The position numbers and the translations under genes were made by a program. A stretch of DNA of 64,000 nucleotides from Xenorhabdus japonica (GTDB lineage: Bacteria > Pseudomonadota > Gammaproteobacteria > Enterobacterales > Enterobacteriaceae). The DNA lies in contig NZ_FOVO01000017.1 of the NCBI RefSeq assembly GCF_900115195.1, forward strand, positions 1 to 64,000. Reading direction: 5' to 3'. Positions 39,204 to 47,629 of the stretch are shown here, one piece after another (position 1 is the first letter of the stretch; each line of letters opens with the position of its first letter). The notes beneath the pieces were generated by a model, which was not told where the DNA came from, ran no database searches, and saw only the letters and a program-made list of their open reading frames with translations.

Positions 39204-39326
39204 TTAAACAGGCAACATAACTGATTTACAAAAAATACATTTTGCTCCGTATGGATTACTCTCTGATACATCAAAGAGATATTTCCGACACTGTGAGCCT
39301 TTACAACATGGACATCTGAAATAGAT
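39204..39326 (-). CDS. YmcF/YnfQ-like small CPCC/CIFC protein without an AUG start
   Basis: Directly after the csp TAA, in the same frame, 42 sense codons run to a TAA at 39204-39206. The product reads (GD)IYFRCPCCKGSQCRKYLFD, then VSESNPYGAKCIFCKSV. Two Cys pairs (CPCC and CIFC) suggest a metal-binding ribbon. It closely matches my memory of the E. coli cold-shock small proteins YmcF/YnfQ (FRCPCCHGSQ, NPLGAKCIFCKS). There is no ATG, GTG or TTG before the first Cys. The best start is ATC 39326, with AAGG of the csp stop region just upstream; I recall non-AUG initiation being reported for the E. coli proteins. Readthrough of the csp stop is an alternative. The C-terminus is shorter than in E. 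coli. Confidence 0.7.
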   Translation of the reverse strand: MYFRCPCCKGSQCRKYLFDVSESNPYGAKCIFCKSVMLPV

Positions 39327-39332
39327 GTCGCC

Positions 39333-39545
39333 TTAGAGAGCCACTACATTTGCAGCCGCTGGGCCTTTCATACCATTTTCGATGGTAAATGAAACTTCTT
39401 GCCCTTCATTTAAACTTTTAAAATCATTGCCTTGGATTGCAGAATAGTGAACAAACACATCTTTGCTGCCATCTTTTGGAGAGATAAAACCGAAGCCTTT
39501 ATCGTTATTAAACCATTTTACTAAACCAGTCATTGTATTAGTCAT
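39333..39545 (-). CDS. CspA-family cold-shock protein
   Basis: 70 residues from ATG 39545 ([20 protein letters not shown]). RNP1 KGFGFISP and RNP2 DVFVHYSAI are intact. It is most like the cold-inducible CspA/CspB/CspG group. It acts as an RNA chaperone. The frame is open a further 51 codons upstream, but that stretch is the 5' leader. The leader of about 160 bases carries a cold-box match, as in cspA mRNAs, so cold-regulated translation is expected. Confidence 0.93.
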
Positions 39546-39716
39546 ATGAATTCCTTTAAATTTTTTGAGTTGCCGCAAGGCAGAATAAGGTTTGTTTTTA
39601 ATTTGTACGTACTTATGGGAACTAATTAGAAGGAATTCGCAATGAAGGGATATCAAAGATAACGCTAAATGGTGAACTGCTTTAAACTTGCTTGTCATAA
39701 ATAGGTCTGTACTTCC
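39546..39716 (-). promoter_or_regulatory. Long 5' leader of the csp mRNA with cold box
   Basis: GTACAGA at 39712-39706 (minus strand, in GGAAGTACAGACC) matches the core of the E. coli cspA cold box TGACGTACAGA and lies about 160 bases before the ATG, the same distance as in cspA. The leader length and position support thermosensitive RNA folding. The transcription start was not identified. Confidence 0.6.
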
Positions 39717-39818
39717 AAACCGATAACGCCATTAACTCACATCTTCACTAATATAGCAAACTTTATTTTCTATCTCGCTTTCTAAAACATCATTCTTTTA
39801 GCATTCATAAAACATGCA

Positions 39819-46217: not shown

Positions 46218-46550
46218 TTAAGCCATCTTAATCATAATCATACCAATCAATAACAGTACAATACCGCCCCATCCCTTAAAATTCAGTCGTTGATTAAACA
46301 TGATCCAACCGGCTGCTACTGTAGCAATAATGCCAAACGCTCCCCACAGAGCATAAGCAATGGAAAGTTCAATACCTTTTACTGCCTGAGCTAACGAACT
46401 AAATGCACCCAAAACAGCAATCAGGGATAAAATACCGATCCAGAAGCGCTGAAAACCATTGGATAATTTTAATAAAATATTTGCCACAATTTCCAAAACA
46501 ACAGCCAGAACCAGGAATGCACCATGCCACCATTCAAATTGGGTTAGCAT
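46218..46550 (-). CDS. mdtI: MdtI, SMR-family spermidine exporter subunit
   Basis: 110 residues (E. coli 109), four membrane helices. SMR residues include the conserved membrane Glu in [18 protein letters not shown], and the motif [20 protein letters not shown]. With MdtJ it forms the heteromeric spermidine exporter. Its ATG lies one base after the mdtJ TGA, with GGAGG inside the end of mdtJ. Confidence 0.96.
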
Positions 46551-46551
46551 A

Positions 46552-46947
46552 TCATGCCTCCTTGACTTGCTTGTTCAAAACATTATTTGGTGGGGGTGAT
46601 GTATTGTTTGAAGCATGGTCTTGAGCTTTTTTTGACCCTACCTTGATCAAAGCAATACCTGCTATCAATAATGTCAATCCACCAATTTTCATCAATGACA
46701 GTGACTCATTGAACCACAGTACACTAAAAGCAGTAATAAACAGGATCCCAATACCTTCCCATAGCGCATAAGCTACACCTAATGCCACTTTTTTTACCGC
46801 AATTGCCAGCAAAATATAAGAAGTTGTGATCATGGTGTACATCACAATCATGCCTGTAAAATCACCCGAAACGCTGGCTTGTTTCATCGACAGAGTGCCA
46901 ATCACTTCTGCCACGATTGCCAGTGCAAGAAATATCCAATAAATCAT
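46552..46947 (-). CDS. mdtJ: MdtJ, SMR-family spermidine exporter subunit
   Basis: 131 residues from ATG 46947 ([20 protein letters not shown]), which has CAGGAG upstream; an upstream ATG in frame adds 14 unsupported codons. Four helices with the conserved Glu of [11 protein letters not shown] and the motif [20 protein letters not shown]. The C-terminal tail is longer than in E. coli and Asn/Pro-rich. First gene of mdtJI, behind a leader of almost 290 bases with an upstream ORF. Confidence 0.96.
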
Positions 46948-47083
46948 TTTTTTCTCCTGAACATACTGATAAGCATGCCAAAATATCAAGCTATAAGTGC
47001 CAACAAGATCGGCTGTAAATGCAACTACGTAATGTCAGAATCAACCTGACGTTTTAGCGAAATATTTTGGCAAAAGGGAAATG

Positions 47084-47123
47084 CCGGTGAAAAACCGGTT
47101 AGCAGGAGAAGGCCCTAAAGGGC
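47084..47123 (-). promoter_or_regulatory. Two GC-rich hairpins in the mdtJ leader
   Basis: GCCCT-AA-AGGGC (47112-47123) contains the upstream ORF's TAG; CCGGT-GAAAA-ACCGG (47084-47098) follows 13 bases later. In this AT-rich spacer they stand out. Neither has a U run, so translation-coupled control, Rho access or mRNA processing are more likely than intrinsic termination. I compared them with guanidine riboswitches and saw no match. Confidence 0.6.
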
Positions 47124-47231
47124 GCCGCACCAATAGTGCTCACTGGATAAGATAGTTGATAGGAAAAAAACGTGGGTACAACGTTGAATTTTTTTACTAT
47201 GTTGAATGTTGACGCTTTTGGCGCTATTCAT
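47115..47231 (-). CDS. Upstream ORF (38 codons) in the mdtJI leader, mdtU-like position
   Basis: ATG 47231 opens 38 codons, MNSAKSVNIQHSKKIQRC then THVFFLSTILSSEHYWCGAL, ending at TAG 47115-47117, 167 bases before mdtJ. The ribosome site is weak (AAAGAA). In E. coli an upstream ORF of about this size, mdtU, is reported to link spermidine to mdtJI expression; I cannot recall its sequence, so orthology rests on position and size. The stop codon lies in the loop region of a hairpin, a layout fit for translation-dependent control. Confidence 0.55.
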   Translation of the reverse strand: MNSAKSVNIQHSKKIQRCTHVFFLSTILSSEHYWCGAL

Positions 47232-47247
47232 GGTATTTTATTCTTTC

Positions 47248-47271
47248 ATCACACGATGTTCACTGTGTGAT
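47248..47271. promoter_or_regulatory. Dyad ATCACAC-N10-GTGTGAT upstream of the mdtJ leader ORF
   Basis: Perfect 7-bp inverted repeat 17 bases upstream of the upstream ORF start. Half-site order is the reverse of a CRP site, so CRP is not indicated. Possible operator of an unidentified regulator. Confidence 0.35.
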
Positions 47272-47629
47272 ATACTACGAACCCTCATATTGATAATGTT
47301 AATGGAATATTTCTACCATAGTTCAAAATAAAAAGCAACATCTTGTATTTTCTTATTATTTTCATTCATCATATTCTCAGCCATTCCAAGATAATCAAGC
47401 ATGTGCCATCAAATACCGAATTTAATTAGCAGAGCTAATATTATTTTAAGGAAGACAGCCTATATTATATCCCAGTAACTCAACAATCAATTTTTATTAT
47501 GTTATTTTTCGACATAAGCTCAAGTTATTAAACATGGATTCAGCACAGATCAGTAATTTATTTTTAAATAGTATGTTACTTTGGAATAATAAATGAATGA
47601 CGTTCAATAACATCTTATTATTTAATAAC
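47272..47629. other. Spacer between the mdtJ leader and the zwf terminator
   Basis: About 360 AT-rich bases. It should contain the mdtJ promoter. No gene or RNA recognised. Confidence 0.4.

Follow-up and report, generated by a model that had tools for sequence, protein, structure and literature searches.

The window analysed here, a stretch of 64,000 nucleotides from Xenorhabdus japonica, carries the spermidine exporter genes mdtJ and mdtI on its minus strand, with both products scoring above their NCBIfam equivalog cut-offs, and a short ORF, mdtU, directly 5' of the pair (Table 1). The best named match of the window MdtJ is that of X. anantnagensis (97% identity), with other Xenorhabdus next. 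An earlier note, made from the letters of this DNA, had described an ORF of 38 residues running from ATG 47231 to TAG 47115 and had pointed to E. coli mdtU as its counterpart in the mdtJI leader. The ORF is present as described, encoding the peptide MNSAKSVNIQHSKKIQRCTHVFFLSTILSSEHYWCGAL, and it is a relative of MdtU, conserved far beyond Xenorhabdus. Its stop codon lies 167 nt from mdtJ. Judged from alignment and gene order, the locus is a divergent member of the known MdtU (YdgV) leader family.

Table 1. Features of the mdtUJI locus, in coordinates of the window.
Feature	Position	Strand	Basis or remark
Predicted -35 element TTGCTT, mdtUJI promoter	47333..47338	-	17-nt spacer; TTG invariant in 27 Xenorhabdus upstream regions
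Predicted extended -10 (TGG-TAGAAA)	47310..47315	-	Analogy with E. coli TGA-TACAAA
Inverted repeat ATCACAC-N10-GTGTGAT	47248..47271	-	Predicted mdtU 5' UTR; Xenorhabdus alignment
mdtU, 38-codon leader peptide ORF	47115..47231	-	Orthology, alignment, dN/dS
Conserved MdtU C-terminus SEHYWCGAL	47118..47144	-	Alignment
UAG stop codon, proposed stall site	47115..47117	-	TAG in 135/135 leaders
Hairpin 1 at stop codon (GCCC-UUUA-GGGC)	47112..47123	-	Fold; 90.7% of cells paired
Anti-Shine-Dalgarno UUCUCCUG	47103..47110	-	+5 to +12 after stop codon; between the two hairpins
Hairpin 2 (CCGGU-UUUUC-ACCGG)	47084..47098	-	Fold, Xenorhabdus alignment
Branched structured domain	46977..47071	-	Closed by stem 47071-47061 / 46987-46977
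mdtJ Shine-Dalgarno CAGGAGAA	46952..46959	-	Pairs with anti-SD in predicted fold
mdtJ, spermidine exporter subunit	46552..46947	-	NCBIfam NF007767, 165.5 bits vs cut-off 122
mdtI, spermidine exporter subunit	46218..46550	-	NCBIfam NF007934, 186.2 bits vs cut-off 103

The E. coli mdtU is reported to comprise 34 codons with its stop, to lie 106 nt upstream of mdtJ and to be translated; its start codon is required for spermidine induction of mdtJI, the mdtJI transcript is ended early by Rho, and 17 or more genera share the conserved C-terminus of the peptide (PMC7815308). A part of the mdtU RNA was also predicted to form pairs with the ribosome binding site of mdtJ (PMC7815308, eLife), and a speFL-like mechanism was suggested and left open by the authors (PMC7815308). 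Among later papers that mention mdtU, PMC9769551 describes regulation by AcrR, PMC10746267 induction in mildly acidic conditions and PMC9765468 effects of Rof and CspD, and PMC12350097 adds evidence of translation.

A candidate promoter for all three genes lies upstream of mdtU, and the bases that follow the invariant TTG of its -35 element vary among the 27 Xenorhabdus upstream regions. A generic promoter scan did not list the TTGCTT-N17-TAGAAA block (47338-47310). By analogy with E. coli, where the start lies 278 nt from the mdtJ AUG and hence 70 nt upstream of mdtU (PMC7815308), transcription is predicted to begin near 47304, about 72 nt upstream of the ORF. The earlier note had considered that the start might fall downstream of 47231; this is not indicated, the predicted start being upstream of the ORF. 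The inverted repeat in the predicted 5' UTR has a loop of variable length in Xenorhabdus, and at about the same place the E. coli leader carries an inverted repeat of another sequence (ACAATTATC...GATAATTGT).

A close MdtJ match was found in 27 of the 30 same-genus genomes searched, the window genome counted, while the remaining three (G001, G006 and G025) gave distant SMR matches only. All 27 loci with a close MdtJ have kept the ORF, with 38 codons in 26 of them and 32 in one. With that 32-codon ORF (L025) left out, variable sites numbered 7, 6 and 28 at codon positions 1, 2 and 3, and mean dN was 0.043 against a mean dS of 0.548 (275 of 276 pairs among 24 distinct ORFs). The ORF and the constraint upon it are established by these comparisons and, on this pattern of substitution, the MdtU peptide of Xenorhabdus is under strong protein-level selection.

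In the GTDB family of the window, 199 genomes had an MdtJ match, from which one or a few per genus were taken. This gave 112 loci under 63 genus labels and 54 named loci, or 166 loci with 135 distinct leaders. The set takes in L154, L152 and L119; two loci with distant SMR genes from other families and no MdtU (L158 and L159) were left out of all counts, and E. coli was counted apart from the numbered genera, one of which it may coincide with. All 135 distinct leaders have an MdtU-like uORF ahead of mdtJ. The distance from the mdtU stop to the mdtJ ATG runs from 86 to 225 nt, with 385 and 388 nt in two further leaders (L049 and L052); both of these belong to one genus, a third genome of which has 168 nt.

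Across clades the C-terminus of MdtU is best conserved and the N-terminal half aligns poorly. Trp34 (47132-47130), five residues from the end, is the sole invariant residue in the 26-sequence alignment, and the window peptide carries the C-terminal W-x-x-(A/E)-L pattern. Two types of C-terminus were seen, the first of approximate form (S/A)SE(H/Q/Y)(H/Y)WC(G/S)(A/E)L at Xenorhabdus, Proteus, Providencia, Arsenophonus, Yersinia, Hafnia and Edwardsiella loci, the second close to GEQHWR(N/S)AL in E. coli and many further genera. In one 1.4-Mb genome (L156) the Trp codon is TCG (Ser) and the stop is still TAG; this leader is perhaps in decay.

The Pfam YdgV model PF23502 matched E. coli MdtU at 89.2 bits, and a search with the window peptide returned no family at E values up to 1. 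We read this miss as a limit of the model rather than a defining feature of the leader, and the window peptide is assigned to MdtU because of its alignment and gene order, not a Pfam match. An MdtU profile matched it with an E value of 2.8e-14, which is not independent evidence since the window sequence is itself in the profile. The profile found no second MdtU-like sequence in the window genome at E values up to 0.01. It hit 15 family genomes and two outside the family in an order sample of 295 genomes, and the window genome alone in a class sample of 321 (E up to 0.001), a short profile of this sort being one that may overlook distant relatives.

A working small protein, for example a partner of MdtJI, would also fit the strong protein-level constraint, and a product of mdtU has been detected in E. 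coli (Weaver et al. 2019, cited in PMC7815308). However, what is conserved between clades lies mostly at the C-terminus, and a released protein would give no reason for the stop codon to be invariant. We regard this explanation as improbable.

The stop codon of mdtU is TAG in all 135 distinct family leaders, a count that does not represent independent events since the genomes are related, whereas mdtJ ends in TAG at only two of the same 135 loci. As a further background, TAG closes 5 of the 36 mechanically called ORFs of at least 180 aa in the window. The score first used to pick the ORFs was blind to the stop codon. It was reached by 107 of 113 leaders, all 107 with TAG (61 genera), and the six below it were L122, L152, L049 and L052, each with TAG, together with the excluded L158 and L159.

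A motif scan that was independent of mdtJ (E-[HQ]-[HY]-W-x-x-[A/E/D]-L followed by a stop, in 314 family genomes) gave 107 matches with TAG, in 106 genomes and 51 genera when counted by the motif alone. There was one match with TAA or TGA (EQHWQTDL), in a genome that also has the TAG motif near mdtJ, and this lone match is apparently not MdtU. A reversed-pattern control gave none among the matches listed. The Leu codon before the stop occurs in six synonymous forms (CTT, CTA, CTG, TTA, TTG and CTC), and different bases follow the stop; blanket DNA conservation therefore does not account for the constant G of TAG. UAG is read by RF1 alone, and the stop codon of mdtU is established here as invariant within the family, a release-factor-specific constraint of the SpeFL and TnaC kind. 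Two relatives outside the family were found, one with TAG as the mdtU stop and the other with TAA. At one locus outside the family (L180), an MdtU-like uORF before mdtJI ends GEFLWRSSL followed by TAA, has no anti-SD, and has a stop that ends at 692; possibly it represents an earlier state of this leader.

An invariant UAG might also be kept for programmed readthrough that extends MdtU. The in-frame extension past the stop stays open for a mean of 27.9 codons, against 17.8 and 13.1 in the other frames and 17.3 in shuffles (62 genera). The long open frame occurs mainly in the SE-type clade (34.7 codons) and is without a coding signature in Xenorhabdus, where two groups of seven leaders gave no codon-phase pattern in the extension and the alignment has frame-breaking indels past the stop. 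Readthrough of UAG is thus unsupported, and we give it scarcely any credence.

The earlier note had also placed the stop codon inside a hairpin and a second hairpin 13 bases after the first. Both hairpins are present at these positions in the sequence, and the remainder of the leader, from hairpin 2 to the mdtJ ATG at 46947, counts 136 bases rather than the 135 given. The note had read ORF and hairpins as a polyamine-sensing leader on condition that they are conserved; the ORF is, whereas the hairpins proved to be less conserved parts of the leader. Hairpin 1 showed no two-sided compensation, with one pair broken in 8 of the 27 Xenorhabdus leaders, and hairpin 2 had one pair with two-sided changes.

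Unremarked in the earlier note, the 13-base gap between the hairpins contains UUCUCCUG, all eight bases of which are complementary to the mdtJ Shine-Dalgarno CAGGAGAA. In the minimum-energy fold, the helix between this anti-SD and the SD encloses hairpin 2 and the branched domain. The helix is paired in 99.1% of cells among the Xenorhabdus leaders, more often than hairpin 1 (90.7%) or hairpin 2 (90.4%), and the hairpins were rejected as the conserved core. Over the whole Xenorhabdus fold, the covariation score exceeded that of shuffles and nine pairs had two-sided changes where shuffles gave 5.9, with 15 of 500 shuffles reaching that count of nine. Further pair types were not in excess (40 against 40.1). 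No Rfam family matched the leader at gathering scores; the sole such match in the window was the cspA thermoregulator (RF01766, 194 bits) at 39310-39724 on the minus strand.

The leader folds better than its shuffles (z -3.6) and the fold is partly conserved in Xenorhabdus, as would suit a folded RNA that senses spermidine directly, with translation of mdtU merely tuning the response. Leader length nevertheless varies widely across the family while the peptide end and the stop codon stay constant, and induction is lost in E. coli when the start codon of mdtU is mutated (PMC7815308). Direct sensing by the RNA is, in our judgement, very improbable.

Pairing was compared across genera for the anti-SD and SD only, with one leader per genus and with L049 and L052, whose mdtU lies farthest upstream, left out. 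The 22 nt after the stop codon pair with the SD of their own genus at a mean of -15.3 kcal/mol, against -11.8 kcal/mol in cross-genus combinations (63 genera), and none of 20,000 cross-genus permutations, a procedure that includes no phylogeny model, matched the observed pairing. The preference is also seen within subclades, with z values of -6.4 (27 genera) and -5.0 (35 genera). In 55 of the 63 genera the post-stop window paired better than any other tested window of the same leader, a better-pairing window being found elsewhere in the other eight. Against shuffled copies of itself it paired more strongly at the 5% level in 50 genera and failed to in 13. Weak pairing was seen in L156 (-9.1 kcal/mol), L154 (-9.9), L037 (-10.3) and L164 (-8.4).

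These comparisons establish the covariation of anti-SD and SD, and joint changes of the two strands give examples of it. Providencia-type leaders have CUUCUAGAU with AUCUAGAGG, genus g143 has CUUCACAAAAC with GUUUUGUGAGG, and genus g136 has CCUCUCUUAUGC with GCAUAGUGAGAG, with one bulge. The predicted pairing starts at +1 to +7 after UAG, and at +3 to +5 in 42 of the 63 genera. Judged by these comparisons, the part of the RNA structure found again from genus to genus is the long-range anti-SD/SD helix around hairpin 2.

The position of the anti-SD immediately after a fixed stop codon suggests how the peptide and the RNA could work together. In toeprinting practice, a ribosome whose A site contains a stop codon protects some ten bases downstream of that codon, so that a ribosome parked at the mdtU stop would cover most of the anti-SD. 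When such a ribosome was modelled by barring pairing up to +11, mean predicted accessibility of the SD rose from 0.13 to 0.44 (63 genera), while a control mask that barred +25 to +35 left it at 0.13. This predicted gain, also established here, exceeded 0.3 in 30 of the 63 genera. Release was modest for the window leader in the same setup (0.01 to 0.09); accessibility rose from 0.03 to 0.31-0.44 with 3-15 nt of mdtJ included, and from 0.04 to 0.18-0.33 with 30-60 nt.

We propose that, in the resting state, mdtU is translated with quick release of the ribosome at UAG, and UUCUCCUG would then pair with the mdtJ SD and close the branched domain, leaving mdtJ untranslated and the transcript subject to termination by Rho. 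At high spermidine, the nascent C-terminus of MdtU, with its Trp five residues from the end, would hold the ribosome at UAG by blocking release by RF1. The parked ribosome would free the SD, mdtJ would be translated, and transcription would continue. Stalling at UAG, RF1 as its target and spermidine as its ligand in Xenorhabdus are inferred here. The account as a whole, in which spermidine-dependent arrest covers the anti-SD, frees the SD and prevents Rho termination, is the simplest one when taken with the E. coli genetics and is in our view probably correct.

A stalled ribosome might instead exert its main effect by shielding a Rho loading site that lies just past the stop, as happens in tnaC; the anti-SD would then be a secondary or independent brake. 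Termination of mdtJI by Rho has been demonstrated in E. coli (PMC7815308). Over the 40 nt that follow the stop, base composition averages 31% C and 18% G, against 19% C and 26% G over the initial 100 nt of mdtJ (62 genera, L156 being left out for its Ser codon in place of Trp), and a C-rich, G-poor region of this kind is what a Rho site would be expected to show. Both relatives from outside the family have kept MdtU with no post-stop anti-SD (-4.5 and -5.6). A Rho site alone, however, would not need the anti-SD to track the SD of its own genus. We consider it unlikely that Rho-site shielding is the main effect, though it may act as well as, or instead of, release of the SD.

A narrower version of the preferred account, in which spermidine arrests the ribosome at UAG to uncover the mdtJ SD, would have MdtU be an arrest peptide that works solely against RF1, with the anti-SD so positioned that the ribosome footprint on UAG itself acts as the switch. 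Under this reading, the family-wide fixed UAG excludes an escape route through RF2. We advance it tentatively, as somewhat more likely to fail than to hold. If true, such leaders would form a class in which sensing depends in part on which stop codon is used.

No prior report of either anti-SD covariation or UAG invariance was found in the open-licence PMC literature, and neither 'UAG' nor 'RF1' occurs in the main text of the eLife paper (PMC7815308). Within the literature searched, both features therefore appear to be new for the MdtU family. Together, the two features suggest that the choice of stop codon can belong to a metabolite sensor, and they make the MdtU mechanism directly testable. 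By the same pattern, the leader can be recognised even when its peptide is missed by the present protein-family model.

The Xenorhabdus leader shares with E. coli mdtU (ydgV) its position, operon, W-x-x-A-L end, UAG, post-stop anti-SD and promoter layout. It differs in the length of the peptide (38 residues against 33), the C-terminal sequence (SEHYWCGAL against GEQHWRNAL), the length of the leader (167 nt against 106 nt) and the Pfam YdgV match, which is found for the E. coli peptide only.

SpeFL, the product of the ornithine-sensing leader of speF, is likewise encoded by a uORF of similar size in the polyamine pathway. No match to speFL was found in the window genome, and no common motif was seen by eye between the SpeFL and MdtU sequences compared. 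Arrest of termination on speFL blocks RF1 (PMC8429421), for which we propose a counterpart in MdtU. Among the best 30 of 45 matching genomes (198 searched; L182-L211), SpeFL ended in TAG in 21, TAA in nine and TGA in none, which suggests that RF2-only stops are avoided in this other polyamine leader too; SpeFL thus uses UAA in some genomes, whereas MdtU of the family did not. The tryptophan-sensing leader tnaC resembles the proposed mechanism in that arrest at a stop codon prevents termination by Rho, but it does so with UGA and RF2, and what the stalled ribosome conceals there is a rut site, not an anti-SD (PMC8429421).
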